Origin: Candidatus Binatia bacterium
GTDB lineage: Bacteria; Desulfobacterota; Binatia; UBA12015
Assembly: GCA_029243485.1 (NCBI GenBank)
Contig: JAQWRY010000023.1
Location: forward strand, 1-39,650
DNA: 39,650 nucleotides
Direction of reading: 5' to 3'
The notes under the pieces are model-generated. The model saw only the letters and a list, made by a program, of their open reading frames with translations. It had not been told where the DNA came from and searched no databases. Numbering within the stretch: position 1 is the stretch's first letter; each line of letters opens with the position of its first letter. Positions 9,766-32,229 of this stretch are shown piece by piece. Made by a program: the position numbers and the translations under genes.

Positions 9766-10052
9766 GGGGGAACCTTAGCATAAAGTTCGGCGACAGCATC
9801 TCGCACAGGGATGCCGGGCGTCAGTGAGATCCGTGCGGCGATAGAGGTGGCCGAAGGACTCCTTGCACTGGAATAACACGACCAAGACGACACCCTCGCG
9901 GAACCTCCCCACACCCGAGAGTCCGCCGAACAGTGGGCCCAGAAGTCCTTGGGCCTTCGAAAGACGTGCCTGAGCATAAGCGGATTTATTTCCCTGGAAA
10001 GATGATGAAACATCTCTTCCCCTCAGAACTTGTCCGGTCCTAGCTCACCTCC

Positions 10053-12138: not shown

Positions 12139-13419
12139 TTACTCGACGTAGCCGAGTTGGCGAAGCCGGTCCTCGTCACTCGCCGAGAGTCCTCTGGGCT
12201 GGACGTCTGCCGCAGAGAGCTCGGTCTCAAGCTGGTCGATGCGATTCTGATGCTTGGCGACGATCGCGGGGTGCGCCGCCGCAACGTCGTTCGTCTCTCC
12301 CGGATCGGCCGACAGATCGAAGAGCGAGATTGATCGCCCATCGCGCGGTCGGGTGCTCTTCCAACGACCGGAGCGATAGGTCTGATAGGCGAGCTCGCTG
12401 AGGAATAGCTCTCCTCTTTCCGTGTCCTGTGACGCTGGGAGCTCAGGAGCACCTGCCGCGCGGAGCAGGAGGCCGTACAGATCTTGAGACCGGACGAAAG
12501 CGGATGGGTCTTCGACCAGGTTTCCGGATGCGAGGAGCGGCACCTGGAGGAGCGGTTCGAACGATGGGTTCCCGAAGTGCCCTCGACTGCTGGGAAGCGC
12601 GTGCGTCTCCCCGAGTGCCTCACCGTGGTCGGAGGTCAGGACGACCATGGCGTCGTCGAGGTAGCCACGCTTCTCGAGATCATCGAGCAGCAGGCCGAAG
12701 TCGGCGTCGAAGATCCGGACCGCGTCCGAGTAGGAACGACTCAGGATCTGGTACTCGTGCACGTCGATGTAGTGAACGTAGACGAAGAGAGGACGGTCCT
12801 TCGGTTGCGACTCGAGAGCTTTCAGCACCGCCGCGTTTACCGGCCTGGCACTGCGGCGCCGGGCAGATGCCTGCAGTGAACCAGGCCCGTTACGCTTGGA
12901 TTGCTCCGGTGTCCTCGGGGCGACCTGCACCCATTCATCGAAGCCTTTTTCGTAGCCGCCCGGCTTGTAGAGAAGCTCGTTCGCGATGACCCCTACTGTG
13001 CGGTAGCCGAGCTTTCGCATCTCCTCGGCGAGGGTAGAGACCGCTTCGGGAATGCAGTCGTCGCCTTCGCTCGCCGCCAAGCGTGCGAGTCCGCACCAGG
13101 TCTGGCCGCTCCAATGCAACTGTTGTCCGCCGGTCCGCTCCAAGCTCGGCGTTCGGCCCGTGAACAGAGCGGCTGTCGACATGGTCGTTTGGTGAAACGA
13201 TGAGGCCGATTCCGTGAGCACCTGGCCCCGGGTGGCGACGCGGTCGATGTTGGGCGTTCGCGTCTTTGACCCGTACGCGGAGACGTGATCGCGCCGGAGC
13301 GTGTCGACGACGATGACGAAGATATTGCCCGGCTTCTCTGGCGGGGCGGCGGGTGGCGACACGCAGCCCATGATCAACGACGATGCCAGCGCACGCATCA
13401 ACCAGGCACGAAGTTTCAT
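12139..13419 (-). CDS. Sulfatase-fold lipoprotein, coupled to a glycosyltransferase-methyltransferase
   Basis: A 426-residue lipoprotein (MRALASSLIMGC lipobox) of the sulfatase/alkaline-phosphatase superfamily. Visible motifs are FVIVVDTLRRDHVSAYG (metal Asp39), YVHYIDVHEY, and VLTSDHGEALGE. The residue aligned with the sulfatase formylglycine Cys is Thr78 (TTMSTAALFTG), and the Pro of the C-x-P-x-R motif is Met. Classic sulfatase chemistry is therefore unlikely; a phosphatase or a phosphoethanolamine- or glycerophosphate-type transferase is possible. The C-terminus ends RLRQLGYVE. The ATG follows the stop of the GT2-methyltransferase gene after one base (TGAGATG), implying translational coupling and a shared pathway in envelope glycan modification. 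Confidence 0.88.
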   Translation of the reverse strand: MKLRAWLMRALASSLIMGCVSPPAAPPEKPGNIFVIVVDTLRRDHVSAYGSKTRTPNIDRVATRGQVLTESASSFHQTTMSTAALFTGRTPSLERTGGQQLHWSGQTWCGLARLAASEGDDCIPEAVSTLAEEMRKLGYRTVGVIANELLYKPGGYEKGFDEWVQVAPRTPEQSKRNGPGSLQASARRRSARPVNAAVLKALESQPKDRPLFVYVHYIDVHEYQILSRSYSDAVRIFDADFGLLLDDLEKRGYLDDAMVVLTSDHGEALGETHALPSSRGHFGNPSFEPLLQVPLLASGNLVEDPSAFVRSQDLYGLLLRAAGAPELPASQDTERGELFLSELAYQTYRSGRWKSTRPRDGRSISLFDLSADPGETNDVAAAHPAIVAKHQNRIDQLETELSAADVQPRGLSASDEDRLRQLGYVE

Positions 13420-13420
13420 C

Positions 13421-15028
13421 TCAGGTCCCCGTCATGGGTCCGAGCCTGGCCTCGCGTTTTGCGGTGGCCGTCTTCGCCTCGGCGAGAAGGAATGCGAGCG
13501 ACGCTCGCGGCTCCAGGACGAGGAGCATTTGGTAGGAAAAGAGGCGCCGGAACGGTCGGATCAGGAGACGGCTGAGTGTGAGTAGTGAGGCGCTGAGCGT
13601 CCGGTTCGAGGTCGCGAGGGGGAACGGGGCAGGCACGCCCTCTTCGTGCACGACGCGGAAGCCGTCCTGTTCGAAGAGTCGCCTGAAGGTCGAGAAGGTG
13701 AAGAGCCGCGTGTGGGTCAGATCCAGGATGCCCCGTTTGCCGTAGTTGAACTGCCCGGACAGCAGCATGATGCGAGTCAGGAAGAACCCGATGTTGCCGG
13801 TGGTGAAGATCAATCTGAGCCCGGGTACGGACGAGGTGGCCCGGTACAGCGCCTGCGCGAACTCTTCGGGAGCGCGAAGGTGTTCGATCACGTCGAGCAT
13901 GACGACGACGTCATAGCTTCCATAGTCCAGGTCCGGTGGACCAGAATCGAGATCGCAGTGGTGAAACTTGCTGACCTCGACGCCCGGAGCAAGCGGTTCC
14001 CGGTCGACCGCGGTCACCGTACAGGCGCGCTCGCGCTCCAGAACCTGCGCGAAGTACCCGCCGGCGCAGCCCAGATCCAGCACCCGGGACCCGCGGGGAA
14101 CCTGTGCGAGCGCTCGCCGGTGACTGCTGTCGAAGCCGAGCTTTAACTCGTAGTGCGCGTTGCCTCGGTCCTGTGGCGCGCAGTCGAAGCGACGCTCGTA
14201 GAACAAGTTCATCTGTTGCATCCGAGCGCGGACCACCGCTCTGAGCGCGTCACGGATGTGCTGCCACGACGGCGTCGCCCCCCGCGACCCGCGGTCGTAG
14301 GGAGGTGTGACTTCGACGACGCGCATGCCGCTGAAGAGAAACTGTATGAGGACCTCGGTATCGATGTGTCGACTGCCCGTGTCGAGGGCGAACGGAATGT
14401 TGCGGAGCGCCTCCACCCGATAGGCGCGAAGGCCCGCATGCAGGCTCGCCACCCGGCGTCGCACTACCCGGCCGACGAGTCGCGTAGCCCAGCGTTCCCG
14501 GCTTCCCGGTGCCGGAGCCATCGAAGCCGCGTCCGCTCTCCCTTCGACTAGAGGGCCCAGCAGGGCTTCGATGTTTGCGGCTCCCAGATCACCTGCGCAG
14601 TCGACGACCGCAACGCAATCGAATCGGCGATCGACGGCGTATTGGAAGCCGAGTTTCTGACAGCCTCCGTAGCCACGTGGCACGCTCGACGAGAGGACTT
14701 CGAGCGGAAAGGGCAGGACCCCGCTCCGTCGCATGTCGGTCGCTTGCTCGAAGGTGGCATCGTTCGACGCGTCGTCGATGAGCAATGCCTCGACCTGAAA
14801 CTTCTCGCACAGCGTCGCAGGGACCTGGCCCAGAACATCGGCTAAACTGGCCTGCTCATCGCGTGCGAGGACGAGAAGCAAGAGTCTCGGATGGTCCCCC
14901 AGCCTCGGTTGTTCGAAGGACGTCAATTTCGGAGATCTTTCCTGGCTGGTGCGGCTCCGGTCGAGGCCATGCACAGGCCTCGCCACACGGCCCGTAGGGT
15001 ACTCCAGCCTCCTCTCGCCGCGCAACAC
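13421..15028 (-). CDS. Bifunctional GT2 glycosyltransferase / class I SAM methyltransferase
   Basis: A 535-residue two-domain protein. Residues about 45-270 are a GT-A family 2 glycosyltransferase: LLLLVLARDEQASL, LLIDDASNDATFEQA, SLHAGLRAYRVEALRNIPFA and HIDTEVLIQFLFSG. The usual metal-binding DxD/HGDGQ stretch is replaced by VVDCAGDLGAANIEALL, so donor binding may be altered. Residues about 300-470 are a Rossmann methyltransferase: SRVLDLGCAGGYFAQVLE (motif I), FHHCDLDSG, DVVVMLDVIEHL and IFTTGNIGFF. Fusions of this kind occur in polysaccharide and lipid-glycan loci. It is cytoplasmic, with no signal peptide. The start is uncertain: GTG 15028 has no clear ribosome binding site. It heads a two-gene unit with the sulfatase-fold gene. 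A 128-bp spacer separates it from the divergent aldo/keto reductase. Confidence 0.88.
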   Translation of the reverse strand: MLRGERRLEYPTGRVARPVHGLDRSRTSQERSPKLTSFEQPRLGDHPRLLLLVLARDEQASLADVLGQVPATLCEKFQVEALLIDDASNDATFEQATDMRRSGVLPFPLEVLSSSVPRGYGGCQKLGFQYAVDRRFDCVAVVDCAGDLGAANIEALLGPLVEGRADAASMAPAPGSRERWATRLVGRVVRRRVASLHAGLRAYRVEALRNIPFALDTGSRHIDTEVLIQFLFSGMRVVEVTPPYDRGSRGATPSWQHIRDALRAVVRARMQQMNLFYERRFDCAPQDRGNAHYELKLGFDSSHRRALAQVPRGSRVLDLGCAGGYFAQVLERERACTVTAVDREPLAPGVEVSKFHHCDLDSGPPDLDYGSYDVVVMLDVIEHLRAPEEFAQALYRATSSVPGLRLIFTTGNIGFFLTRIMLLSGQFNYGKRGILDLTHTRLFTFSTFRRLFEQDGFRVVHEEGVPAPFPLATSNRTLSASLLTLSRLLIRPFRRLFSYQMLLVLEPRASLAFLLAEAKTATAKREARLGPMTGT

Positions 15029-15156
15029 GAGGACGCGTCGCGATCACCCAATGATTTGCGCAACCTCATGTCGGAAGCTCCCTGATCAGAAGCGATATTG
15101 AGTGAGGGACTGGTAGTGGGCTATCGTAGCAGTCCGGCCTGAGGGGCCGTTTCATC

Positions 15157-16422
15157 ATGCCGAAGAGAGAAGAGCCGCTAGGCCGAAGAGAGATGTTGCG
15201 CCGTGGGGTCGCGGTCTCGGTAGGTGCGGTCGCTAGCCGATTCATCGGGGCGGCGCCGACGACCGCGCGGGCTTCGACCGCCGATTCGGCGAAGCCCACT
15301 GCAGGCGTCGAGAAGTATCCAGTGCTCGGCCGCACCGGGATCAAGATCTCGGACATCTCACTCGGGTCGGGCGGGACGGCCGATCCGGCGCTGTTCCGCT
15401 ACGCGTTCAGCCGTGGCATCACGTACTTCGATACCGCCGATGGATACCCACTTGGGGCTCCGGGCCAGGCGGAGAAAGCGATCGGGAAGGCGCTCAAGGG
15501 GAAGCGAAACCAGATCACCCTGGCGACCAAGACGATCACCACGCCGAGAGATCGCCGCAAGAAGCTGATGCGGAAGCTCGAGGCGAGCCTTCGCCGACTC
15601 CAGACCGACCACGTCGACGTGTACTTCAACCACGCCGTCAACGAAGTCGCCCGGGTCACGAACCCGGAGTGGCTCGAGTTCACGGCGCGAGCAAAGCAAC
15701 AGGGGAAGATCCGCTTCTCCGGGATGTCGGGGCACGGTGGGAACCTCGCCGAGTGCCTCGACGTCGGGCTGGATCAGGATCTGTTCGATGTGATCCTCGT
15801 TGCATACAACTTCGGGCAGGATCCGAGTTTCTACGAGCGCTTTACGAAGCCGCTCGACATGATCGCGACACAGCCGGAGCTTCCCCGCATCCTCGAGAAA
15901 GCCAAGAAGAAGAACGTCGGCGTCGTCGTGATGAAGACATTGATGGGCGCGCGTCTGAACGACATGCGTCGCTACGAACGGGACGATGGCACCTTCGCGC
16001 AGGCCGCGTTTCGCTGGGTCCTCTCGGATCCGAACGTAGACGGACTCATCGTGTCGATGAACGACCGGAAGCAGGTCGACGAGTACCTCGCTGCTTCGGG
16101 ACAAGGAGGCGTTCGCACGAGCGATCTCCAACTCCTCGACCGCTACGTGCTTCTCAATGGGGGGTCGTACTGCCGGTTCGGGTGCAGCGACTGCGAGTCC
16201 AGCTGCCCGCACGACGTTCCCATTTCCGAGGTTCTCCGAAGCCGAATGTACGCCGCCGACTACGGCGATCTGCGGAAGGGCAAGGCAGTTTACGCGGAGC
16301 TCGGAGAGGGGGCCTCGGCGTGCCTTGGCTGTGCCACCGAGAGCTGTCGGTCCGCGTGTGGCTACGGCCTCCCCGTCCCCTCGATGACGCGATCGACGGT
16401 CGGCCTTCTCACCCTGGTTTGA
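15157..16422 (+). CDS. Tat-exported aldo/keto reductase with C-terminal iron-sulfur domain
   Basis: 421 residues. The N-terminus is a Tat signal (twin Arg at 10-11 in GRREMLRRGVAV, cleavage near TTARA-S). An aldo/keto reductase TIM barrel follows (about 50-330): VLGRTGIKISDISLGSGG and YFDTADGYPLGAPGQAEKAI (Asp and Tyr of the catalytic tetrad), TLATKT (Lys) and DVYFNHA (His). The C-terminal domain has CRFGCSDCESSCPHDVP (about 338) and CLGCATESCRSACGYGLP (about 388), room for one or two [4Fe-4S] clusters. Tat export suits a cofactor-loaded folded protein. A GAGGGG lies upstream of the ATG. It is followed 20 nt later by a quinoprotein dehydrogenase gene, suggesting a periplasmic electron-transfer pair acting on a sugar or alcohol. 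Confidence 0.9.
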   Translation: MPKREEPLGRREMLRRGVAVSVGAVASRFIGAAPTTARASTADSAKPTAGVEKYPVLGRTGIKISDISLGSGGTADPALFRYAFSRGITYFDTADGYPLGAPGQAEKAIGKALKGKRNQITLATKTITTPRDRRKKLMRKLEASLRRLQTDHVDVYFNHAVNEVARVTNPEWLEFTARAKQQGKIRFSGMSGHGGNLAECLDVGLDQDLFDVILVAYNFGQDPSFYERFTKPLDMIATQPELPRILEKAKKKNVGVVVMKTLMGARLNDMRRYERDDGTFAQAAFRWVLSDPNVDGLIVSMNDRKQVDEYLAASGQGGVRTSDLQLLDRYVLLNGGSYCRFGCSDCESSCPHDVPISEVLRSRMYAADYGDLRKGKAVYAELGEGASACLGCATESCRSACGYGLPVPSMTRSTVGLLTLV

Positions 16423-16442
16423 AGCGACCGAGCGTTCTCGCC

Positions 16443-18458
16443 ATGTCGGCCTCGCGACTAGCAGTCCTGCTTCTGTTGGTCCCGCTCACGGCGGGCTGCG
16501 AACGCGCCGAGCGCGTTTCCTACGGCGTCGAGGAGGGACAGTGGCGCAGCTACGGTGCCGATCCGGCCAACACGAAGTACTCGCCGCTCGATCAAATCGA
16601 CGCCGGCAACTTTGGTGATCTGGAGGTCGTCTGGACGGCCGACTCTCCGGACGTCGCTTGGCGCGCAGCGGGCCGTCGGAGGAAGAAGACGCGTGAGTTC
16701 AACGTCGCGAACTCCGCCAGAATTCTGGAGTTCCAGGCGACCTCCCTGATGGTGGACGGGACGCTCTACGCCATTTCTGCCGTTGGCCAGATCTTCGCCG
16801 TAGACGCGAATTCCGGAGCTCTCCGCTGGGTGCACGATCCGGTGAGCTACCAGGCCGCCGAGTCTCCCATGGACTACATCTTTCCAAAGCACCGCGGGGT
16901 CGCGTATTGGCGCTCTGGCGACGACGAGCGCATCCTGGTGCCGACGATCGACTCGTATCTGCTGGCCCTCGACGCAGAGACCGGCCAACCGATTTCAGCG
17001 TTCGGCGAGGAGGGGCGGATCGATCTGACACGTGGGCTGCGTGGGCCCGAGATCCGACGTCTGAAAGACTATTTCCAATCTTCTCCTCCGGTGATCGTGG
17101 GTGACACCGTCGTCGTCGGGAGCAGCGTCACCGACCGCCCGAAGCACAAGCACGGAACCCCGGGTGACGTTCGTGGCTACGACGTCGAAAGCGGCAAGCA
17201 GAAATGGGCGTTTCATGTCGTCCCGAGCGAAGGAGAGTTCGGGACGGAAACCTGGGAGGGGAAATCCTGGGAGTACTCCGGCGGCGCGAACGTCTGGGGC
17301 CCGATGAGCGCCGATCCGGAGATTGGCTACGTCTACGTCGCGACCTCGGCTGCCACCAACGACTATTACGGAGGCCACCGCAAGGGAGATAATCTATTCG
17401 CCGGTAGTCTGCTTTGCCTCGACGCCGAGACCGGTGAGCGGATCTGGCACCAGCAGCTGGTCCGCCACGACCTCTGGGACTACGACCTCGCCGCCGCCCC
17501 GAACCTGGTGGATCTCGAGATCGATGGAACGCTCGTGAAGGCGGTAGCGCAGGTGAGCAAGCAAGGCTTCGTCTTCGTGTTCGACCGGATCACCGGCGAG
17601 TCTATCTGGCCGATCCGCGAGCAACCCGCGCCGGCGTCGGACGTTCCCGGCGAGCAGGTCGCGGCGACGCAGCGCGTGCCCTCCAAGCCGCCCCCGTTCG
17701 AACGCCAGGGGACGTACGAAGACGGGCTCATCGATTTCACGCCGGAGCTCAGGGCCGAGGCGCTGGAGGTTTTTCGCAAGTACCGCACCGGGCCGATCTT
17801 CACGCCTCCATCTCTCGCCGGCTCGCTGGTTCTGCCCGGCCCCCCTGGCGGGACGAACTGGCAGGGGGCCGCTTTCGATCCGGAGACCGCGACACTGTTC
17901 GTTCCGTCGATTACGTACGCGCAGGTCGTGTCGGTGAAGAAGGGGAAGAAGAAGGACACCGATTTCGATTACGTCACGGACTTGAGCGCGACCCAATGGA
18001 TCGCGGGTCCGCCCGGTCCACAGGAGGCTCTCCCCCTCTTCAAGCCGCCCTACTCACGGATCACCGCTTACGATCTGCGCCGCGGTGAGATTCTGTGGCA
18101 GGAAGCGAATGGCGAAGGTCCGCGCGATCATCCGCGGCTCGCCGGACTGGACCTGCCGCGTCTCGGCTCCGGTGCGCACGCATGTGTTCTCGCCACGCGC
18201 ACGCTCCTGCTGTCGGCCGACCGCAGCTCCATCTGGATGGGGGGAATGGGGGAGCCCGTTCTACGCGCCTATCGCAAGGATACGGGCGCTCTCGTGGGTG
18301 AGATCGATCTCCCGGCGCGAGTGCGGGGCTGCCCGACGACCTATGTCAGCGATGGGAGACAGTTCATCGTTCTGCCGATCGGCGACGAGGACGTTACTCC
18401 CCGGCTGTTGGCGCTGTCGCTCCCGCAGGCTGGTCTCCGGAACCAGCCGGAAGAGTGA
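16443..18458 (+). CDS. PQQ-type quinoprotein dehydrogenase lipoprotein, copy 1
   Basis: 671 residues from ATG 16443, chosen because it starts a lipoprotein signal (LAVLLLLVPLTAGC) and follows the aldo/keto reductase stop by 20 nt. The body is an eight-bladed quinoprotein propeller: W-docking repeats such as GEILWQEANGEGPRDHP, plus the family blocks DYFQSSPPVIVGDTVVVGSS, ERIWHQQLVRHDLWDYDLAA and VLPGPPGGTNWQGAAFDPE. These match membrane or periplasmic PQQ-dependent alcohol/sugar dehydrogenases; no cytochrome c domain is present, so electrons would go to a partner or to quinone. PQQ synthesis genes are not in the window. Its 3' end overlaps the 3' end of its oppositely oriented paralogue by 65 bp. 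Confidence 0.9.
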   Translation: MSASRLAVLLLLVPLTAGCERAERVSYGVEEGQWRSYGADPANTKYSPLDQIDAGNFGDLEVVWTADSPDVAWRAAGRRRKKTREFNVANSARILEFQATSLMVDGTLYAISAVGQIFAVDANSGALRWVHDPVSYQAAESPMDYIFPKHRGVAYWRSGDDERILVPTIDSYLLALDAETGQPISAFGEEGRIDLTRGLRGPEIRRLKDYFQSSPPVIVGDTVVVGSSVTDRPKHKHGTPGDVRGYDVESGKQKWAFHVVPSEGEFGTETWEGKSWEYSGGANVWGPMSADPEIGYVYVATSAATNDYYGGHRKGDNLFAGSLLCLDAETGERIWHQQLVRHDLWDYDLAAAPNLVDLEIDGTLVKAVAQVSKQGFVFVFDRITGESIWPIREQPAPASDVPGEQVAATQRVPSKPPPFERQGTYEDGLIDFTPELRAEALEVFRKYRTGPIFTPPSLAGSLVLPGPPGGTNWQGAAFDPETATLFVPSITYAQVVSVKKGKKKDTDFDYVTDLSATQWIAGPPGPQEALPLFKPPYSRITAYDLRRGEILWQEANGEGPRDHPRLAGLDLPRLGSGAHACVLATRTLLLSADRSSIWMGGMGEPVLRAYRKDTGALVGEIDLPARVRGCPTTYVSDGRQFIVLPIGDEDVTPRLLALSLPQAGLRNQPEE

Positions 18459-20487
18459 GCGCCAGAAGCGAAGGATCCCGCTCGTCGCTCCCGGTCGACA
18501 TGACCACGTACTGCTTGCCGTCGTGCAGGTAGGTCAGCGGGCAGCCGCGTGCTGTTGCGGGAAGTTCTACCTCTCCGAGCAACGCACCCGAGCTCTTGTC
18601 GTAGGCCCGAAGGAACGGCTCTCCCAAACTGGGCATCCAGGACCAGGCGCGGTCGACCGACAAGAGGAGCTTCGACGTCACCAGGACACATGCATGCGCC
18701 CCCGAGCCGAGCCGCGGCAGGTCGAGGTGGGCGAGTAGGGGGTGGTTTCTCGGACCGTTGCCGTTGGGGACCTGCCAGCGCGTCTCTCCGCGATCGAGAT
18801 CGACGGCGGTAATGCGTGAGTACGGCGGCTTGAACAGAGGTAGCGAACCGGCCGTCCAGCCCGGCCCGGTCGCCCAGGGAGTCGACACGGACTCGGTCGC
18901 GAAGTCGAACGTGGTTTCTGCAGCCTTGCCCTTCTGTATCCGGACGACCTGACCATGCGTGATCGAAGGAACGTAGAGCGTTCGCGTTTCCGGATCGAAG
19001 CCTGCCCCTTGCCAACTCGTGCCGCCCGGCGGACCCGGGACCACCAGCGTTCCCTTGCGGGAAGGAGGCGTGAACAGCGGACCCGTTCGGAAGCGGCGGA
19101 AGACATCCAGGGCTTTGGCCCGAAGCGCGGGCGTGAAGTCCATCAGGTCCTTTTCGAAGGAGCCCTGAAGTTCGAACGCAGGCGGCTTGGTCGGGAAGCG
19201 CTGGGTCGCGGCGGCAGGCTCGCCGGGCACGTGCGACCGTGGAACCTCGCGATCTTCGATGGGCCACAACGGCTCACCCGTCTTGCGATCGAACACGAAG
19301 GTGAACCCCTGTTTCGTCGCTAGCGCCACCGCCTCGACGTGCCTTCCGTCGACTTGGAGGTCGACGAGGTTGGGCGCCGCCGCGAGGTCGTAGTCCCACA
19401 GGTCGTGGCGGATCAGCTGCTGGTGCCAGATCCGCTCCCCGTTTTCTCCGTCCAGGCAGAGCAGCGTGTCCGAGAACAAGTTGTCGCCCGGCCGATGGCC
19501 ACCGTAGTGGTCGTTGGTCGGCGATGAAGTGGCGACGTAGACGTAGCCGAGCGCCGGATCGACGCTCATCGCACCCCAGGCGTTCGACCCACCGCCGTCC
19601 TTCCACGATCCGTTCTCCCAGGTCTCGTGGCCGACCTCGTCCGCTTCGGGAACTACATGGAAAACCCACTTCAGCCGGCCCGAGAGCGCGTCGAAGCCGC
19701 GAATGTCGCCTGGCAGCCCCGGCAACGTCTTCGGCCGATCGGTGACGCTTCCACCCACCACCACCGTATCGTCAACGACCGCGGCCGGCGAGGACTGGAA
19801 GTAGTCGGTGCCGCGATGCAGACCCGTGCGACGAAGACTCTCGAGCAGGTCCACGCGCCCTCCGCTCCCGAAGGACTCGACGGGACGGCCGGTCTTCGCA
19901 TCGAGGGCGAGGAGATACGCGTCGATCGTCGGCATGAAAATGCGCTCGTCGTCGCCATGCTTCCAGTAGCTCAGGCCTCGATGCTTCGGGAATATGAAGT
20001 TCATCGGGCTTTTTGCCGAGCGATAGCTCTGGGGGTCGTGAACCCAGATCTCCTCGCCGGTGCCGGCATCGAGTGCGAAGACCTGGCCAATCGCTGTGCT
20101 GCCGTAGAGTCGCCCGTCCACCATCAGCGGTGTCGCCTGGAATCCGAGGATCCTGGCCGAACGGGCCGGGTTGAACGAGCCGCGCTTCGGCCTGTTCTTC
20201 GCGCCCTCGGCTCGCCATCGGACGTCGGGCGAAGTCCACTCCCATGCAGGCTCCAGGCCGGCGAAGTTGGCCGCATTGATCTGGTCGAGGGGCGAGTAGC
20301 GGCTGCTCTCCGGATCGCCGGCCCAGCTCCGCCACTGACCGTTCTGCACACCATATTTGGCGCGGGGAGTCTCGCCGGGAGTGTTGCAGGCCCACGAGAA
20401 CACGAACGTCAGCACGGCGAATCGCAACGCCGTTCGACAGCCGGCGAGATGCACGCGAGGTAGTTGCCTTCTTCGGACTCTCTTCAC
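18394..20487 (-). CDS. PQQ-type quinoprotein dehydrogenase lipoprotein, copy 2
   Basis: About 697 residues from GTG 20487 (GTG 20454 is also possible; neither has a strong ribosome binding site). A basic n-region is followed by RFAVLTFVFSWAC, a lipobox-like end. It is a close paralogue of the plus-strand quinoprotein: shared blocks include DYFQSSPAAVVDDTVVVGGS, ERIWHQQLIRHDLWDYDLAA, VVPGPPGGTSWQGAGFDPE and LDLPRLGSGAHACVL. The reaction would be PQQ-dependent oxidation of an alcohol or sugar in the periplasm, substrate unknown. The two genes face each other and overlap at their 3' ends. Its promoter region (20488-20591) is shared with the divergent GT-C gene. Confidence 0.9.
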   Translation of the reverse strand: MKRVRRRQLPRVHLAGCRTALRFAVLTFVFSWACNTPGETPRAKYGVQNGQWRSWAGDPESSRYSPLDQINAANFAGLEPAWEWTSPDVRWRAEGAKNRPKRGSFNPARSARILGFQATPLMVDGRLYGSTAIGQVFALDAGTGEEIWVHDPQSYRSAKSPMNFIFPKHRGLSYWKHGDDERIFMPTIDAYLLALDAKTGRPVESFGSGGRVDLLESLRRTGLHRGTDYFQSSPAAVVDDTVVVGGSVTDRPKTLPGLPGDIRGFDALSGRLKWVFHVVPEADEVGHETWENGSWKDGGGSNAWGAMSVDPALGYVYVATSSPTNDHYGGHRPGDNLFSDTLLCLDGENGERIWHQQLIRHDLWDYDLAAAPNLVDLQVDGRHVEAVALATKQGFTFVFDRKTGEPLWPIEDREVPRSHVPGEPAAATQRFPTKPPAFELQGSFEKDLMDFTPALRAKALDVFRRFRTGPLFTPPSRKGTLVVPGPPGGTSWQGAGFDPETRTLYVPSITHGQVVRIQKGKAAETTFDFATESVSTPWATGPGWTAGSLPLFKPPYSRITAVDLDRGETRWQVPNGNGPRNHPLLAHLDLPRLGSGAHACVLVTSKLLLSVDRAWSWMPSLGEPFLRAYDKSSGALLGEVELPATARGCPLTYLHDGKQYVVMSTGSDERDPSLLALTLPAGSGDQPAGATAPTAGE

Positions 20488-20591
20488 TGGGGATTCCGCT
20501 CCCTGGACGAAGATGCTTGTATTGTCTCGATAGCCACCGGAGCCACCCTTGTTAGCATGACACGTGGCGGTGTCGGAGTCCCTCGAGCCAC

Positions 20592-22232
20592 ATGCCACTA
20601 CGGCACATCCCTCCTCTTCAGGACCAATCTCGGTCGCGCCTCGAGTCGTGGCTGCATGTGGTTCTCCTCGTCGCGCTGAGCACGTATTTCGAAGCTCAGT
20701 TCGTGTACGTCGGTGTCAATGCGACGGACGAGGGCTGGATCCTCTACGCCGCCATGAGGCTCTGGGACGGAGGCACGCTCTACGACGACATCTTCTTCGT
20801 CTTTCCGCCAGGCCACGTCTTGCCGGCCTGGATCGCTTACGGTTTGGCCGCGCCGGGTCTCGTTCTCTCGCGTTGGATCTACGCAGGCTTCAATGTCGCG
20901 CTCTGCGTCGCTCTCTATCTCTTGGGACGGCGCATCACGCGACCCATGTATGCGTTCATCGCGGTCGCGATGGTGGCCGTCTACTCTCCGTACTCTCACG
21001 GCGCGCACTTCCTGTTCGGTTACCGCTATCTCGTCTGGAGCATCCTGGCGCTTCTCGCCTTCTCGCAGCGCCTTCGTACCGATGACCATCGTTGGATGAT
21101 GCTCGCCGGAGCCCTGGCGGGGATCGCGCTCTGCTTCCGGCTGACGCCGGCCTTCTCCGTGAGCGTCGGAATCGGGTTCGGAATTCTCGCGGCAAGCCGG
21201 GACTGGCGTCTCTGGCTTCGGGATGGAGCCTGGTACACGGCCGGTTTGCTCCTAGTCGCCGGCCCGGTACTCGCATGGCTCTTCTCCGGTGTCGGACCAT
21301 TGGTCGTTTGGTCCGAAGCAGTCCAGCGGGCCGTCGAGATGACCAAGCTGCAAGCAGTCGACATGCCTCCGCTGCACTTTCCGTGGGGATGGGAGCGCCA
21401 AGAGATTCAAGGGGCTCTGGTGGCAGTCGTCTTTCGCGCCGCTCCCTTGTTTTACGTGAGTTACATCGTCCTTGTGCTGACGATGTGGGCGCGCGATCTC
21501 AGGTCAGGGGTTGATTGCCGGCGTCCGCTGCTGATCGCGATCGTCTTCTTTGGCGCAGTCTATTTGGGAAGAGGGTTTGGACGCGCAGACCAGGGGCACC
21601 TCGATACGGCAATGCCGCCGGTCCTGCTGCTCCTGGGCCACATGCTCGGGGGGATCGAGAGCCGACTGGCCAAGGCGATGTCTGCACGCGCGGCCACCGC
21701 CATCGTGGCAACCGCCGGCGTCGCCCTCCTCGTCGTTTCCGTTGCGGGGCAACGCTCTGACGACTGGATGTTCTCCCCGGCTCCCCCGCGTGTGCCGATC
21801 AAGGCGGTCCAGGGCCGGATCAAGCGGTGGATCTACAACAACAAGACCGACCCCGCCGTCGCCATGATCAAGCGCTCGACCCGTGCAACGGACACGATCC
21901 TCGACCTCTCGGCTTCTCCGCTGTTTTCCGTTTTGAGCGGGCGCCGGGGCCCGGGGTACGCGGACATCGTGATGCCGGGCACGTTTCGCGACGCGGCGGA
22001 GGAGAGTCGGTTCGTCGAACGACTTCGAGCCGACCCGCCCGCCTTCGTCCTGGAGCCCAAGACACCCTTCGACGCTGTCAGCGCCAACGCGCTCGCGCTC
22101 ACGGCGCCGGAGCTCACCGTCTGGATCGAGGATAACTATGGCCGCGGGCCTGAAACTCCGCACTTCGTCGGCCGCCCCCGTCGCCCGCAGCCACTCTCCG
22201 CCCAGAGCGATCTCTCGTCCGATACCGAATAG
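20592..22232 (+). CDS. GT-C-like multi-pass membrane glycosyltransferase, copy 1
   Basis: 546 residues with about ten or more predicted membrane helices over residues 20-395 and a soluble C-terminal part (about 400-546). The first periplasmic loop has ATDEGWILYAAMRLWDGGTL, with the acidic DE pair expected for GT-C enzymes that use polyprenyl-phosphate sugars (ArnT/PMT-like). The tail holds DTILDLSASPLFSVLSGRR and ADIVMPGTFRDAAEE, both conserved in the paralogue. It probably transfers a lipid-linked sugar on the periplasmic side; acceptor unknown. ATG 20592 has GGAG 13 nt upstream. It is transcribed divergently from quinoprotein copy 2 and convergently with GT-C copy 2, from which its 3' end is 67 bp away. 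Confidence 0.8.
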   Translation: MPLRHIPPLQDQSRSRLESWLHVVLLVALSTYFEAQFVYVGVNATDEGWILYAAMRLWDGGTLYDDIFFVFPPGHVLPAWIAYGLAAPGLVLSRWIYAGFNVALCVALYLLGRRITRPMYAFIAVAMVAVYSPYSHGAHFLFGYRYLVWSILALLAFSQRLRTDDHRWMMLAGALAGIALCFRLTPAFSVSVGIGFGILAASRDWRLWLRDGAWYTAGLLLVAGPVLAWLFSGVGPLVVWSEAVQRAVEMTKLQAVDMPPLHFPWGWERQEIQGALVAVVFRAAPLFYVSYIVLVLTMWARDLRSGVDCRRPLLIAIVFFGAVYLGRGFGRADQGHLDTAMPPVLLLLGHMLGGIESRLAKAMSARAATAIVATAGVALLVVSVAGQRSDDWMFSPAPPRVPIKAVQGRIKRWIYNNKTDPAVAMIKRSTRATDTILDLSASPLFSVLSGRRGPGYADIVMPGTFRDAAEESRFVERLRADPPAFVLEPKTPFDAVSANALALTAPELTVWIEDNYGRGPETPHFVGRPRRPQPLSAQSDLSSDTE

Positions 22233-22299
22233 AAGCGCCGCGAGGATTCGGGCCGGAACTTCTCCGCCAGGTTCCGAAGCCGCCGTCGATCCGAGCGGG

Positions 22300-23943
22300 T
22301 TAGGGTCGCCCCTGGCGGGATGGTTTCTGCGCTCGCGGAACCCAGCCGACGAACGCCCAGCTTCGCTCGCGCACCTGGTAGTTCTCGTTGATCCACGCGG
22401 CGAGCAGCGGTGCCGTCTGCGCGAAGCCGCGCTCTTCTCTCCCGTCGAAGGGCTTGGCGGGAGTGAGCACGAAGTCCGGCGGATCTTCGATCATGTGCTC
22501 GAGAAAACGCGCTTCCTCGGCTTCGTCGCGAAAGGTGCCGGGCATCACGATGTCCGCGACTCCCGGGCCGCGGCGACCGGTCAACACGTGCAGCATGGGT
22601 GACGAGGATAGGTCGAGCACGACATCCCCGGGCTTGGTGGCCTGTTTGATCCAGCGGACCCCGAGATCGACCGAATGTGGAATGAAGGCGTCACGAAACA
22701 CGCGGTTCCCCGTTTCCGGGATGGGTCGGTGGCCCCCCAGCGTACCTAGGATCCATTGGTCCGATCGTTGCGCGACGGTCCAGCCTGCGAGCAGCAGGAT
22801 TCCGACGGTGACCGCAATGCCGCTCGCCCAGCGCGTGGGAAGCCATCTGCGTACGCCCTGGTCCAACGAGCCCAGAAGATGCCCCATCAGCAGGAGAATC
22901 GGAGGAATCGCTGAGGTCAGGTGACCGCTGCATGCACGGCCGAACGCACGCGTCAGATAGACGGCTGCGAATACCGAAAGCGCAAGCAGGAGAGGATTGC
23001 GATAGGCATGGCCGGCGCGAAGGTCTCGCTGCCATCCCCACAGAACCCACGCGAGGTAGCCCCCTGCCACGGCGATCGCGATCCGAAACTCGAGCGCGAC
23101 GAATGCGCCCTCGATCTGCGCCCGGTCTGACCAGGCCGGAAGGAATAGATCGGGGACGGGCAAGCTCTGTAGTGCGGTCATCTCCACCGGTCGCTGCACG
23201 ACTTCGCTCCAGAGGACGCTCGGGCCCACGGTCCACGCGTACCACGCGATGACCGGGCCGGAGACGGTCAGGAGCCCCGCCGCATAGCTGCTGCCATCGC
23301 GAACCCAGACGCGCCAGTCGCGGGTGCTCGCCAGGATCCCGAGCCCGATTGCGATGCTCACGGCGAAGGTCGGTGTCAGTCGGAAGCAGAGGCCGATCCC
23401 GGCGAGAGCGCCGGCCGCGACCAGCCAGCGTGCGTCACCACTGCGCTGTCTACTGTGGAAGGCGAGAAGCGCGAGCACGCTGAAGCCCACGTACCGGTAG
23501 GCGAAAAGGTAATGCGATGCGTGCGATGAAGCAGAGTTCAAGGAGAGGAGAAGAGCGCCGATCAGCGCGTACCGCGGCTCCATCAAGCATCGGCCGAGGA
23601 GATAGAGGCTGATGCACAACGCCACGTTCAACATCGCGTAGATCCAGCGCGTGACGATCAATCCTGGAGGGTCCAGCGCGTAGCCGATCCACGCCGGCAA
23701 CGCGTGCAATGGCGGGAAGACGAAGAACACGTCCTCGTAGAGGGTGCCGCCTTCGTGCAGTTGCTTCGCCGTGTAGTAGATCCAGCCTTCGTCCAGGAGG
23801 TTGAGGCCCTGGTGGACAAAGAGCGACTCGAACCACGTGCTCACCGCTGTGAGGAGGATCAGGTGCAAAGCAAGCGTGGCTCGATCGCGGTTCGTTTGGG
23901 CCTGCTCGGGTCGCCCGCGCTGGGCTCGGTTCTCGTTTGACAT
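22300..23943 (-). CDS. GT-C-like multi-pass membrane glycosyltransferase, copy 2
   Basis: 547 residues, paralogous along its whole length to the plus-strand gene ending at 22232. Shared parts include the loop NLLDEGWIYYTAKQLHEGGT, the block VFFVFPPLHALPAWIGYAL, RWIYAMLNVALCISLYLLGR and the tail GDVVLDLSSSPMLHVLTGRR. The DE acidic pair of the GT-C active loop is conserved. The main differences are a hydrophilic N-terminus (MSNENRAQRGRPEQ) and the C-terminal 50 residues. ATG 23943 is clear in frame but lacks a Shine-Dalgarno sequence. The stop of a broken upstream frame lies 12 nt before it, so it may once have been the second gene of an operon. Confidence 0.8.
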   Translation of the reverse strand: MSNENRAQRGRPEQAQTNRDRATLALHLILLTAVSTWFESLFVHQGLNLLDEGWIYYTAKQLHEGGTLYEDVFFVFPPLHALPAWIGYALDPPGLIVTRWIYAMLNVALCISLYLLGRCLMEPRYALIGALLLSLNSASSHASHYLFAYRYVGFSVLALLAFHSRQRSGDARWLVAAGALAGIGLCFRLTPTFAVSIAIGLGILASTRDWRVWVRDGSSYAAGLLTVSGPVIAWYAWTVGPSVLWSEVVQRPVEMTALQSLPVPDLFLPAWSDRAQIEGAFVALEFRIAIAVAGGYLAWVLWGWQRDLRAGHAYRNPLLLALSVFAAVYLTRAFGRACSGHLTSAIPPILLLMGHLLGSLDQGVRRWLPTRWASGIAVTVGILLLAGWTVAQRSDQWILGTLGGHRPIPETGNRVFRDAFIPHSVDLGVRWIKQATKPGDVVLDLSSSPMLHVLTGRRGPGVADIVMPGTFRDEAEEARFLEHMIEDPPDFVLTPAKPFDGREERGFAQTAPLLAAWINENYQVRERSWAFVGWVPRAQKPSRQGRP

Positions 23944-23955
23944 CGCGGGGCTATT

Positions 23956-24180
23956 TCAACCCCGCCGGTCTCTTCGCGACCGGAGGCTTCTCGTGGTCCC
24001 AACTGAGGAATCGCTCCGGGCGAAACCGGACCAGTGCACGCTCGCCGGTCCTCTCTCGGCGACGACCCGCGGAACCCCGAGGACGTCAGCGATGGACACG
24101 GAATACTCCATTTGACACATCACGGGCGCAGGGAAGTTCTGAACGTGGTCGAGGATGCCCGGATTGTAGTCGGCAAGACG
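23956..24180 (-). other. Start-less open frame, possible 3' remnant of an unidentified gene
   Basis: A minus-strand frame with no good start codon encodes KYTEFGAGRLADYNPGILDH and then MCQMEYSVSIADVLGVPRVV, and stops at 23956, 12 nt before the ATG of GT-C copy 2. The composition looks like real protein in its central 50 residues, then becomes Arg/Ser-rich. I do not recognise the family. It may be the truncated end of a gene once upstream in the same operon. Confidence 0.25.
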
Positions 24181-24347
24181 TCCCGCGCCAAACTCCGTGT
24201 ACTTCTGTTTGCTCCAGACCGCGAAACGGCTGTTTCCTACCGAGCAATGCTGCCGCGCTCCCTTGCTCTATGGCATCAGGTCATTGACGCGAGCAGCTCG
24301 GCCCGGCGCCTCTGCCGCTGCGAATGAGGCGAGGGCGCGGCTAAGGA

Positions 24348-24376
24348 TCCGCCGACTCGGACTCCGCGACGACGAC
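24348..24376. repeat. 29-bp direct repeat, copy 1 (copy 2 at 32201-32229)
   Basis: 29 bases identical to 32201-32229, same orientation. It contains GACTC twice (GACTCGGACTC) and ends in GAC triplets. Copy 1 lies exactly where methyltransferase homology begins (24371), so it marks a junction. Copy 2 lies where CmcI-like homology ends. Confidence 0.8.
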
Positions 24377-24713
24377 GACCCCCTTGCGGTGTTCCAGAAG
24401 CTGCGGCGTACTTTAAAGCCAGGTGGCAAATTGCTCCTGACCACGCCGAATACCGTTCGATTGGTAAACTTTGCCTTTATGGTCAATGGGCACAACTTCT
24501 TTGACCGCTACAAGGGCAATATCTACGGCCGCCACAATCGCGAATTTACGGTTCCGGAGTTGCGCCAGATTCTGGAACAGAACGGCTTTCGCATCACCGA
24601 ATGTTAAGGTGCCGTACACCGCGCAGCAGCTCCGGCGGATGCTGGCGAAGGTTGGTGGTGACCCAAACCACCGCGGAGACAATATCTACGCACTGGATGA
24701 ACGAGTCGACTAG
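24371..24713 (+). pseudogene. Class I SAM methyltransferase, C-terminal half, frameshifted
   Basis: The frame DPLAVFQKLRRTLKPGGKLL followed by LTTPNTVRLVNFAFMVNGHN and REFTVPELRQILEQNGFRI is the second half of a Rossmann methyltransferase (post-motif II to the C-terminus). Motif I is absent: homology starts abruptly after the 29-bp repeat. At about 24603 the frame meets TAA, but the +1 frame continues VPYTAQQLRRMLAKVGGDPN to a TAG at 24713, so a single-base shift also split the tail. Truncation plus frameshift makes this non-functional. It could be the remains of a sugar or polysaccharide methyltransferase. Confidence 0.65.
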
Positions 24714-24813
24714 TCGGGGATTGGGACTTTCCTCCGTGACTCTTTGTCCTACGGCGCTTGACCCGAAGGTTCCTTCTGTTTCGGCAGGGGTGGTCCGACC
24801 ATCGTCCTCAGTC

Positions 24814-24871
24814 GACGGTAGCCGACATCAAGGGCCTTTTTGCCTCAATCGCCTTGATGTCTGCTACCGTC
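24814..24871. repeat. Long inverted repeat (20-bp arms, 18-nt loop)
   Basis: Left arm 24814-24833 and right arm 24852-24871 are complementary over 20 bases with one mismatch; the loop is 24834-24851. It sits in a gene-free stretch between the methyltransferase remnant and a small secreted-protein gene. No U-tract follows on either strand, so it is not a standard terminator. Positions 24817-24853 resemble 34093-34129 (32 of 37 matching by eye). Confidence 0.75.
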
Positions 24872-24955
24872 CGCACGACCGAGAATTCCCTCACGCGCCT
24901 TAACCACTTCCTTACCAACCCGTTTGCCTGCTCGACCTGGCCGAGATGGTGAACC

Positions 24956-24983
24956 CGAACCCGTTGCTGCAGCAACGGGTTCG
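24956..24983. repeat. 28-bp perfect palindrome
   Basis: A perfect self-complementary sequence centred on CTGCAG at 24969/24970, with arms CGAACCCGTTGCTG. It lies 112 bp past the stop of the minus-strand gene 25095-25571. As RNA it could form a strong hairpin, but no U-run follows. It could be a terminator, a dimeric protein-binding site or an element end. Confidence 0.8.
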
Positions 24984-25094
24984 AAATTGTCAGAACGAGA
25001 GGGGGCGGCTACCCAATTCTGTCACCGTGGATTTCGAAAACATTGGCGGCCTCTACCCCACGATGAGATCGCTCAACGGCCTCCCGCCCACCGA

Positions 25095-25571
25095 CTAGGG
25101 CTGGCAGCAGACCGAGAGCACCTCTTCGTCTTTCTCGAAGGGGGCATCGGGCGACGACGGGTGCCAAGCTTCGCCCACGACCGCCCGCAGCGCCACCACA
25201 CAACGCGCTCCGTCCGCGGTTTGGCAAACTTCCGCACAGGTAGCCGGCGCCGTCTGCCCCTGGGTCAATTTGGGCTTGGGCTGGATCACACAGCCCCGCT
25301 CTTTTCCGGCTCCGAAGCCAACGAGATTTGCAGGCGATAGCGTCGTGTTGCGACAGCCCGCGCTTGCATCGCGCGCGTAGACAGCACCACGAGGACCCCG
25401 GCAGAGAACCATTCGGGAAGGTGCTTCCCGTTTTGCCTTTCGCCCTCCCGGTTTGGCCACGCCTTCCTCACGGGCCTCCGCCGCGCGGGCTATCGGTTCT
25501 TGCGCAGGAGCGGGTCCCGCAAAGAGCAAGGTCAGAAAAAGTACGGCAAAGCTACGCACGATCGTATCCAT
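25095..25571 (-). CDS. Small secreted cysteine-containing protein of unknown function
   Basis: 158 residues from ATG 25571, preferred over the in-frame ATG 25586 because GAGG lies 9 nt upstream. A clear signal peptide (RSFAVLFLTLLFAGPAPAQ) precedes a basic linker (about 25-55, GGRKAKREAP) and a Cys-containing domain with CRGPRGAVYARDASAGC, GCVIQPKPKL, CAEVCQTADGARCVVALRAV and VLSVCCQP. Seven or eight cysteines in a secreted protein suggest a disulfide-stabilised domain. I do not recognise the family. It stands alone between repeat-rich intergenic regions. Confidence 0.6.
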   Translation of the reverse strand: MDTIVRSFAVLFLTLLFAGPAPAQEPIARAAEAREEGVAKPGGRKAKREAPSRMVLCRGPRGAVYARDASAGCRNTTLSPANLVGFGAGKERGCVIQPKPKLTQGQTAPATCAEVCQTADGARCVVALRAVVGEAWHPSSPDAPFEKDEEVLSVCCQP

Positions 25572-25815
25572 TTTCAGCGTCCTCATCGGGTAGGGCCCAA
25601 ACTAGTCCGTCTTGAAGAAGACGGCCTTGTTTCCACGGTAGGCTAGGTCCATGCCAGCACCAAGAAAGGCTCGCCGGTCGCGCTCCGGGCGTCAAGTAGC
25701 TCTTCGCAAGTGGCATCTTCGAAGGCAGCGACTGAACGTCTCACCGAGTTCTTGTTCGGCGCCACGAGTTGTTCCCGCCCTGGTCGACACTCTAAAAGAG
25801 GCCGTCGTCTACGGA

Positions 25816-28800
25816 TTAGTCGACACTCACGAAGAGGTCGTAGTCTACATTTCCGTTTCGGCCGTACTCGTCAATCTTGATCCGGTAGGTGCCCGGAGCC
25901 AGCGCCAACGTAAGACGGCTATAGTAGCCAGGTCCACCATCGTCGTTGTATCCCAACTCTGATCCGCTGTTGTTGTAGATCCACAGTTGGGTATCGCCCC
26001 AGGGCCCCCCCGGCTGTGCTAGGGTATTTACGGTGACCGTCGTGGTGGAGGTCAGCTCGAAGAAGAAGTAGTCGTCTTCGCTGTTGCCGACGATCGCCCC
26101 CCGCAACAAGCCCGGCACCCCCGGGCCGCCGATGAGGAGTGGGTCGGCGGTGGCGGGCGTATTGTTGGGCTCGGTTTCAGTCTGAATCAGCTCGATCTGG
26201 CAGGAGTCGTCGCAACCGTCACTGGCGCTCGCATTGGAGTCGTCGCAGGTCTCTTCGACCTCGATCAGGCCGTCTCCGCAGACTGAAGTGCGGGTGCTGC
26301 AGTCGGCGCTACAGGAATCACCGTCTTCGGTGTTGCCATCGTCACACGCCTCGGCACCTTCCTGGACTCCATCACCGCAGACCACGGTTTTGCAGACATC
26401 CACCCAGTACCGGAAGCCATATTGGGGGCCTATGTTGTCGACGCAGGTCAGCCCGCTTGCGCACTCGGACTGGTATCGGCAATGGCCCATTCCTTCGGTG
26501 CAGGGTCCGCATTCAGCGGACCAGCAGTAGGAATAATCTCCGGGACTGAAATTACAGGGCGGGCAAAGTGATCCGCTGGTGCACGTCGCGTCGCATGCGG
26601 CGTCGGTCGCTGGTGTCGTGTCGCCGTCATCACAACACTCGCCCGGGCCGACGGCGCCGTCACCGCACACCGCGGTGACCTGCGTGCAGTCGGCGTTGCA
26701 ATAGTCTCCATCTGCAGTATCGCCGTCATCGCAGGCCTCGCCGGGACCGATGTCCGTATCGCCGCAGACGGCCGTGATGCGTTGGCAATCGCTGCGGCAG
26801 TAGTCTTCATCATTGGTGTTTCCGTCGTCGCAGACCTCACCGGGGCCTACCTGGCTGTCACCGCAGACCGCGGTCTCTACTCTACAGTCGGCGCTGCAAT
26901 AGTCGCCATCTGAAGTATTGCCGTCGTCGCAGGCTTCGTCCGCGCCGGTCTGGCTGTCTCCGCAAATGCTAGTCTCGCGGCGGCAGTCGAAGCTGCAATA
27001 GTCGCCATCGTCGGTGTTGCCATCGTCACAGACTTCGTCGTAGCCGACCTCGGTGTTGCCGCACTGGCGTAGCGTGAAATAGCCGGGGAGACAGGCAGCC
27101 CCGGCATCGGCTTTGCGCCCCTTGAACTTCTTGCCGTCGCTGCCATCGCCGCTGCCCACCGTGGTGAACTCCGAGCAGTAGCGGTAGCGGCCCAATTCCA
27201 GGATGGCGTGGACCGTTCCTTCCGAAACACCAGGCTCGAGATCGTAGTCGAAGGTGCGAATGCCTTTTTTGGCCTTGCAGCTCACCGTCAAGCTCTTGGT
27301 GCCGCCGATCTTGACCATGTTGCAGGGGCCCAGCTCGAGGCGCGAGTCGGCGTAGCTGTATCCGCGCTTGCCTACGGTACTCACCGCACTCGACCCGGTG
27401 GCAAACCAGTTCTGGCAATAGAGCGGGATAGGCTGGGAGTCGTGGCCCGAGGTGGGGCTCACGAAACGCAGCACCGCTTTGGCGGTGCCTACGGGGTCGC
27501 CGTTGCACCGTGGGTCGCCGTCGCCACCGCGCGGCGGCGCCTCGATCGTTTTGGCGAGACTAGCCTTCCATTTCGCCCCATTCTTGTAGGGGTCATCAGG
27601 GACTTTGTTCTTCAGGATCAGGGCCTTGCCGGGGATGGGCATTTCGATGGGGTCGGGGAAGGCTACCTGAAATTGCTGAGCGCGGATGTAGTAGTCGGTG
27701 TCCTTGTAGGCGACGACGAAGTCGCCGTTGGGCATCGCCGCGATGTCGGACCACGAAGCGTCGAGCTGGGTGTTGACCTGGAAGGCGTCGGTGAGGGGAA
27801 CGCCGGCATGGTCGAAGCGGCGTGCGAGCACCTGGTCATCGCTCCAGGTGACCACGAAGGAGTCGTCGCTGGCCGCGATTCGCAACGGCGGCTCGCGGTA
27901 GGAGCCGGAGACATCGGCGCCAAGTTCAAAGTCGTTGGTCAGGGGGTTTCCGTCGGCGTCAAAGATGCGGCCGGTGCCCTCAGACCGGTCGCTGGCCCAC
28001 GTGACCATAAAATTTCCATTGGCGGCCTGGGCGACATCGACGACGTAGCCATCCTCGTCTTCCGAGCTTACCCCGAACTCCGGAAGTCGTGGGCGGCCTC
28101 GTTTGTCGAAGAGGCCGACGCGAATGCTGCCGCCGGGTTGGTTGCCACAACAGGCGCCTTCATCGCGAAAGGCGACGACGAAGTCTCCGTCGGGCCCGCC
28201 GGCCCCGGCGAGGTCGCCGTATTGGCCCTGGTAGTACATGGATGTCTCGTTGATGCGGAAGCTGCCGCCTTTGGTCTGACCGATTTTGACGGTGAGGCGC
28301 CCGAAGACGCCTTCGTCTATGCCGAAACTTCCGTTGCCGTAGTCGTAATAGTCGTAGCCCTCCCAGAGGACGACGAATTCACCGGTCGGAAGCGAGACGA
28401 TTTCGGGGTTCGAGTTCTGATCTTCGTCCGGTCGAATCTGGTTCGTGTTCGTTTGGCTGGGGTCGTTGATCTTGAACACAGCGGGTGCGACGTCGCCATT
28501 CTCAAGATTGCGTCGGGTGAATAGGCAGGTCGTATCGTAACAGGGCCGATACCCCGTGTAGCTATAAGTTTTGTCGTAGGCGGTGTAGGCGACCACGAAG
28601 TTGCCCACCGGGTCGGCGGCGACCGAGATGTCGCCCGTCGAGGTCGAGGTCCGGAGTAGACGTAGTCGGCTTCGCGGCTGATCTGGAATTGTTGGTCCAG
28701 CGAGCCCCCATCGGCAAAGAAGCGGCGCCCCTGAACGGTGTCATCCGCTTCCCAGACGACGAGAAAATTTCCGAACGGGTCAGCCGCAATCCGCGGCCCC

Positions 28801-32190: not shown

Positions 32191-32200
32191 GGCAGCAGGG

Positions 32201-32229
32201 TCCGCCGACTCGGACTCCGCGACGACGAC
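32201..32229. repeat. 29-bp direct repeat, copy 2 (copy 1 at 24348-24376)
   Basis: Identical to 24348-24376. Here it lies just after CmcI-family homology ends. Both copies therefore sit at an edge of a truncated methyltransferase-fold gene, and both are followed by GAC-rich sequence. Confidence 0.8.

Follow-up and report, generated by a model that had tools for sequence, protein, structure and literature searches.

Two convergent gene pairs, of quinoproteins and of GT-C-like membrane proteins, in a putative transferred glycan-modification island of a Candidatus Binatia bacterium

The described systems that come closest to the genes considered here belong to three groups, namely the membrane glucose dehydrogenases that depend on pyrroloquinoline quinone (PQQ; TIGR03074, PF01011), the PMT_2 or GT39-like membrane proteins of the GT-C type (PF13231), and the alkaline phosphatase superfamily. 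In that superfamily a threonine nucleophile is found in phosphodiesterases and head-group transferases, such as those of the EptA, LtaS and OpgE kind; formylglycine sulfatases carry a Cys/Ser-X-Pro-X-Arg motif. Relatives of all three groups are encoded in a stretch of 39,650 nucleotides from a Candidatus Binatia bacterium (contig JAQWRY010000023.1; hereafter ‘the window’), where two quinoprotein genes (PQQ1 and PQQ2) and two GT-C-like genes (GT-C1 and GT-C2) stand side by side as two tail-to-tail pairs. With moderate confidence, we read this region as part of a transferred glycan-modification island of about 12 kb in which the pairs arose by separate inverted duplications, the GT-C proteins work with Thr-type sulfatase-fold enzymes, and the quinoproteins have an accessory role. 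The source genome is called G000 below (97.5% complete) and a relative of the same genus G001. The features central to the argument are listed here.

12029-24202, no strand: block common to the window and G001 contig C239, defined by blastn and silent sites; putative horizontally transferred island
16443-18458, plus strand: PQQ1, exported quinoprotein whose nearest NCBIfam model is the membrane glucose dehydrogenase; LTAGC read by eye as a lipobox
18394-20487, minus strand: PQQ2, paralogue of PQQ1, convergent with it and overlapping it by 65 bp at the 3' end; start uncertain
20592-22232, plus strand: GT-C1, polytopic PMT_2-like protein with a DE motif, without the C-terminal sulfatase-fold domain that is fused to it in G001
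22233-22299, plus strand: apparently what is left of the deleted sulfatase-fold domain, lying between the two GT-C genes; G001 is about 1.3 kb longer here
22300-23943, minus strand: GT-C2, paralogue of GT-C1, convergent with it

The original prediction gave the gene order as PQQ1(+), PQQ2(-), GT-C1(+), GT-C2(-) and described each pair as convergent and homologous over its full length, and both statements hold. Four long open reading frames occupy these positions and strands, and identity over nearly the full length is 62-63% between the quinoproteins and 51-52% between the GT-C proteins, far above chance in either case. The quinoprotein frames overlap tail to tail at 18394-18458, and overlap in G001 as well; PQQ2 and GT-C1 are divergent neighbours. 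For PQQ2, the candidate start codons are GTGs at 20598, 20487, 20454 and further in, from which 20487 was chosen. Eight inverted DNA repeats of at least 30 nt were found in 14000-26000, seven of which (70-75%) are confined to one pair or the other, the eighth being a 32-nt match between GT-C1 and 25968-25999.

Phylogenetic trees, in both of which several outgroup branches are long, place the members of each pair together. The tree of quinoproteins of the class (25 rows) groups PQQ1 and PQQ2 as sisters, in one clade with their G001 counterparts (support 100/100, stem 1.11). No other quinoprotein match from the class exceeds 47% identity to PQQ1, and most stay below 46%. Among 15 GT-C proteins, GT-C1, GT-C2 and a remnant on contig C56 of the source genome form a single clade (support 99/98), outside of which falls the GT-C protein of a Myxococcota metagenome-assembled genome (MAG; locus L041). 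An origin of the pair members in distant lineages, the outcome named in advance as speaking against the proposal, is therefore not seen, and these comparisons indicate that both pairs are duplications. A comparison of identity and synonymous divergence had also been proposed; within the pairs, dS (by the NG86 method) is 1.23-1.45 and four-fold identity 0.385-0.425 against an expected 0.339-0.350. Because the silent sites are near saturation, the duplications must be old and can be neither dated nor ordered, and the use of dS as a clock was abandoned. The C56 remnant (3540-4138) is a broken copy with stop codons, 49% identical to GT-C1 and 41% to GT-C2, with no PQQ or sulfatase-fold match in the 12 kb around it; in the tree it branches closer to GT-C1 than GT-C2 does, which implies one or more additional GT-C duplications.

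The case for transfer comes from the comparison with G001. Its contig C239 is collinear with 12029-24202 of the window in four blastn pieces at 82-93% nucleotide identity (mean 90.9%; the lowest value, 82%, belongs to the final 136 bp), and the rest of this 24-kb contig gives no blastn match to the window. Six block genes have a four-fold identity between window and G001 of 0.777-0.841 and a dS of 0.21-0.32. The corresponding baseline values for the same two genomes are 0.554 and 0.675 for rpoB, and 0.434 and 1.16 for another quinoprotein whose copies are sisters in the tree; a gene for a phosphodiesterase with tetratricopeptide repeats (PDE-TPR), possibly compared with a paralogue, has a four-fold identity of 0.383, and identity across 9.4 kb of syntenic DNA is 72-78%. 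From the silent-site excess in the block together with its unrelated flanks, we infer that the block probably moved horizontally after the two lineages split. A dN/dS of about 0.12-0.17 in the four genes points to purifying selection that has kept them functional since that split. Besides the two pairs, the block holds three genes.

12139-13419, minus strand: sulfatase-fold (alkaline phosphatase superfamily) protein, Pfam PF00884 at E 3.3e-30, with Thr at the nucleophile position
13421-15028, minus strand: methyltransferase protein (Pfam) whose N-terminus is weakly GT2-like (20 bits, cut-off 23.3)
15157-16422, plus strand: aldo/keto reductase (Pfam) whose 4Fe-4S match is below threshold and whose N-terminus is of the RR type (Tat-like, by eye), ending 20 bp before the start of PQQ1

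Close relatives of GT-C1 are rare. At E 1e-20, matches among 98 relatives occur only in the source genome and G001; at E 1e-25, a sample of 395 genomes of the phylum that does not include G001 gave matches in the source genome only. A scan of named genomes, which reaches close relatives only, returned two loci, L041 and JAJCZO010000239.1 (‘Deltaproteobacteria bacterium OFTM293’), the latter taken as the same contig as G001 C239. The suggested look for the same four-gene layout in relatives finds it in one of them, G001, and because movement of the whole block explains that layout best, it provides no independent evidence for a pairing of PQQ and GT-C genes. C239 also carries a truncated third GT-C-like fragment (10026-10610; L036 2027-2611) between the sulfatase-fold and methyltransferase genes, which is not in the window; contig C67 of the source genome carries a longer relative, a 702-aa frame with 75% identity across about 102 residues.

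The association that extends beyond the island is the one between GT-C proteins and sulfatase-fold enzymes. In G001, the GT-C1 frame continues into a protein of 1015 aa whose residues 555-859 match PF00884 (E 7.8e-48). The window copy stops early, with about 1.3 kb missing relative to G001, and judging from this alignment GT-C1 of the window has lost a C-terminal sulfatase-fold domain that is still fused in its relative. Counting neighbours at E 1e-6 or better, we found a sulfatase-fold match near six of the nine GT-C loci outside the source genome (L041, L109, L110, L111, L113 and L115, the exceptions being L112, L114 and L116) and near none of 12 PQQ loci. The one-sided Fisher p value for this difference is 0.0015, or 0.0036 with two loci of the same genus merged, in a test that leaves out three GT-C loci of the source genome and compares neighbourhoods of unequal length (3.9-19 kb, with L072 and L080 among the short ones). 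The closest outside case is L041 (JAQWNI010000219.1), whose GT-C protein is 44-45% identical and convergent with a distant GT-C gene, accompanied by two sulfatase-fold genes and, at the edge of the locus, a weak relative of the methyltransferase gene (30%; no Pfam match). Two other GT-C-like proteins of about 1020 aa (L110 6129-9200 and L067 3204-6257) have C-terminal HEAT repeats in place of the sulfatase-fold domain. A search of one literature collection returned nothing on point for a GT-C/sulfatase fusion, nor for a PQQ dehydrogenase together with PMT, sulfatase and Myxococcota.

Most of these sulfatase-fold proteins resemble the Thr-type members of the alkaline phosphatase superfamily. 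When 14 of them were aligned to the profile, the nucleophile column held Thr in 11, Cys in one (a protein of L115 with CAPSR, a true sulfatase motif), Leu in one (the window PDE-TPR protein, probably misaligned) and no residue in one (L109). Thr is present in the island gene at 12139-13419, in the G001 fusion domain, and in the window genes at 8395-9774 and 32475-34022, and the formylglycine-sulfatase motif is absent from all four. Like EptA, LtaS and OpgE, these proteins combine a PF00884 domain with a predominant Thr; unlike them, they have as their membrane part either a GT-C-like domain or the product of a separate GT-C gene. We therefore consider that the GT-C proteins, as far as gene neighbourhoods can tell, are probably components of a surface-glycan system whose hydrolases or transferases are mostly of the Thr type, and to which the quinoproteins are accessory.

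The GT-C proteins resemble PMT_2 or GT39-like enzymes in an N-terminal PMT_2 match, seven to eight hydrophobic segments and a conserved DE near the N-terminus. They differ from them in that GT-C1 scores just below the PF13231 cut-off of 26.1 bits (24.6 bits, against 31.9 for GT-C2), that neither protein has an NCBIfam match or a convincing match in the PDB, and that the G001 copy is fused to a sulfatase-fold domain.

Both quinoproteins match the PF01011 propeller along its whole profile (1-595 of 595; E 1.4e-182 for PQQ1 and 1.3e-184 for PQQ2). W285, D343 and K373 of PQQ1, which we take to be the stacking Trp, the catalytic Asp and the PQQ-contacting Lys, are invariant in 14 sequences, and the PQQ1 model (mean predicted local distance difference test score, pLDDT, 79.6) has PQQ dehydrogenases as its 30 best Foldseek matches. 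The likeness to the membrane glucose dehydrogenase family thus comprises the best NCBIfam match, the retained Trp, Asp and Lys, and the propeller fold. Unlike members of that family (membrane glucose/quinate/shikimate dehydrogenases), the two proteins score far below the TIGR03074 cut-off of 832.65 bits (371.1 and 373.5 bits), with matches that start only at profile position 148-149; the N-terminal membrane part is missing from both, and PQQ1 appears by eye to have a lipobox instead. No PqqC and PqqE over the cut-off were found in the 13 genomes of the same family (the source genome and 12 others), while both were found in G017 and G021 among the 21 genomes searched. PQQ synthesis by the source organism itself therefore seems unlikely from its gene content, and the cofactor may be scavenged from outside. 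A published account of PQQ import (PMC12124388) describes the use of PQQ enzymes by many Gram-negative bacteria that make no PQQ, so that scavenging would be the ordinary reading; its main text contains no word beginning ‘Myxococc’.

Taken together, the island account proposes that the four genes belong to an island of about 12 kb (about 12029-24202) that would modify an extracytoplasmic glycan or glycolipid. Each convergent pair would stem from its own inverted gene duplication before the transfer, and the island would then have moved horizontally between the two lineages that hold it. On the periplasmic side, the GT-C membrane enzymes would use lipid-phosphate donors to add sugars to a surface lipid or glycan. 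Their product would also be the substrate of the sulfatase-fold proteins with a Thr nucleophile, whether separate or fused to GT-C1 as in G001, which would serve as phosphodiesterases or phospho-head-group transferases. As an accessory function, both exported quinoproteins would oxidise a periplasmic sugar or alcohol with the help of scavenged PQQ. The gene layout, the paralogy within the pairs, the block common to both genomes with its silent-site contrast, the fusion, the counts of neighbouring genes and the lack of PqqC and PqqE matches over the cut-off are observations, whereas the transfer, the donors and substrates, the site of action, any coupling and the catalytic roles are all things we infer. 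A bolder version, which we regard as speculative and quite improbable, would make this a mobile surface-glycan module of Myxococcota, built around a single unit, or even a single polypeptide, of a GT-C protein and a Thr-type alkaline-phosphatase-superfamily enzyme. Addition of a sugar and transfer or trimming of a phosphate-linked group would then take place in one periplasmic step, and the paired quinoproteins would afterwards oxidise the product with PQQ from other bacteria.

If the island account is correct, it illustrates that a striking gene order can be over-read, given that a layout common to a relative was most likely established by block movement rather than by a kept pairing. The more useful lead would then be the partnership of GT-C and Thr-type sulfatase-fold proteins, including the fusion, which offers testable partners for GT-C proteins with no assigned function and would suggest a substrate class for the ‘sulfatases’ of these bacteria that have no sulfatase motif.

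A number of observations weigh against this account. The inferred transfer draws on silent sites and a few baseline genes in one genome pair, and the island proteins (90-94% identical) are no more alike than the rpoB protein (94.5%). None of the three weak GT-C loci of the source genome has a sulfatase-fold match nearby, which brings the overall count to six of 12; one of the six positive loci, L109, has mainly a PF01663 phosphodiesterase, and eight of the nine outside GT-C loci are distant (E 8e-10 to 1e-14), such that their habits may not carry over. The GT-C fold itself is putative: a PDB sequence search gave no match better than E 0.11, and the poor model of the fused protein (mean pLDDT 60) retrieved sulfatases and phosphonate monoester hydrolases as its 50 best PDB matches, so that the structure search recognised the sulfatase domain only, with no GT-C protein among those 50. 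With regard to PQQ supply, MAGs can miss pqq genes, and weak PqqE-like matches exist in G002 and G006 (84.5 and 90.8 bits against a cut-off of 381.35). Finally, a 22-nt upstream match, considered next, weakly favours the copying of a two-gene module.

That alternative, which was the original prediction, holds that an inverted duplication copied a divergent PQQ-GT-C module, parts of which were then lost, and that its products may form one coupled glycan oxidation and transfer system. The divergent placement of PQQ2 and GT-C1 fits it, as does the probable location of both enzyme types outside the cytoplasm. The gene order does not: a single inverted copy of such a module predicts P- G+ G- P+ or G- P+ P- G+, whereas P+ P- G+ G- is observed in both the window and G001. 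With all four genes present in an order that is not palindromic, the proposed partial loss would need two module copies, one on each side, and the loss of one gene from each. Whichever path is assumed, at least two duplications are required, and if each was an inverted copy of a single gene, no loss has to be invoked. A trace of the module might be sought upstream. The regions ahead of the PQQ genes have no similarity (136 of 200 shuffles were as good), but those ahead of the GT-C genes have one 22-nt match in matching orientation, about 215 nt upstream of GT-C1, within the N-terminal codons of PQQ2, and about 228 nt upstream of GT-C2. It was reached by none of 200 simple and nine of 2000 dinucleotide shuffles, and by three of 1000 when the G001 upstream region was set against the window PQQ2; however, when the PQQ2 of G001 itself is compared with the two upstream regions, the match does not hold, with 211 of 500 and 146 of 500 shuffles as good. 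It is one of several comparisons tried, and a dead remnant would hardly be expected to persist when the silent sites of the duplicates are near saturation; read as a PQQ remnant upstream of GT-C2, the match is kept only as a weak point in favour of this alternative. As for the proposed coupling, the suggested search for PQQ and GT-C neighbours elsewhere found no GT-C match in 12 other PQQ loci and no PQQ match in 12 other GT-C loci (nine outside and three inside the source genome), and L041 in particular has a convergent GT-C pair with sulfatase-fold genes and no PQQ match in 15.8 kb. We thus consider the module explanation unlikely.

We judge equally doubtful the possibility that each pair consists of already diverged homologues that were acquired separately and came to lie side by side, rather than being duplicated in place. 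The apparent mobility of the island is consistent with such an origin, the 37% amino-acid difference within the PQQ pair and the near-saturated silent sites leave room for it, and the C56 copy is closer to GT-C1 than its neighbour GT-C2 is. Against this, neither clade is broken by any sequence from outside the source genome and G001, and the close GT-C family is rare among the genomes searched, as described above. The third alternative concerns function rather than origin, and proposes that the quinoproteins no longer use PQQ and serve as empty, structural propellers. The lack of PqqC and PqqE over the cut-off in the 13 genomes of the family agrees with it, as does a match to the NCBIfam group acido-empty-quinoprotein, albeit one well below the cut-off (217.9 and 205.9 against 650 bits). 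The presumed stacking Trp, catalytic Asp and Lys are nevertheless invariant, and many Gram-negative non-producers are described as scavenging PQQ. For these reasons an empty propeller also seems improbable to us, and the island account with PQQ-using quinoproteins is the one we prefer.

Elsewhere in the window, a 92-nt repeat at 32248-32339 has sharp ends and flanks that are not conserved. A pattern made from its 51-nt core (at most three mismatches) finds 36 copies in the source genome and none in the other 144 genomes of the class that were searched; G008 holds a 75-nt copy at 91%. Copies, some of them partial, recur at spacings of about 1.3-11 kb and in a single orientation per stretch on C50, C80, C44 and the first 20 kb of C81, and in mixed orientation on C26, C83, C21 and further along C81. 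The repeat has hairpin-like parts and an RNA fold z score of -2.09 on the plus strand, and Rfam at gathering thresholds gives no match in the window. An identity as an integron attC site was rejected, with no second core site visible by eye and mixed orientation on some contigs; a cassette-array or mobile-repeat family is possible. A 36-nt stretch occurs at 24344-24379 and again, 94% identical, at 32197-32232, just ahead of this repeat. At the other end of the window, 448-7706 on the minus strand encodes in one run a TonB-dependent receptor, an HTTM/vitamin K carboxylase-like protein, an imelysin-like peptidase M75 and a DUF4856 protein, which looks like a metal-uptake cluster.

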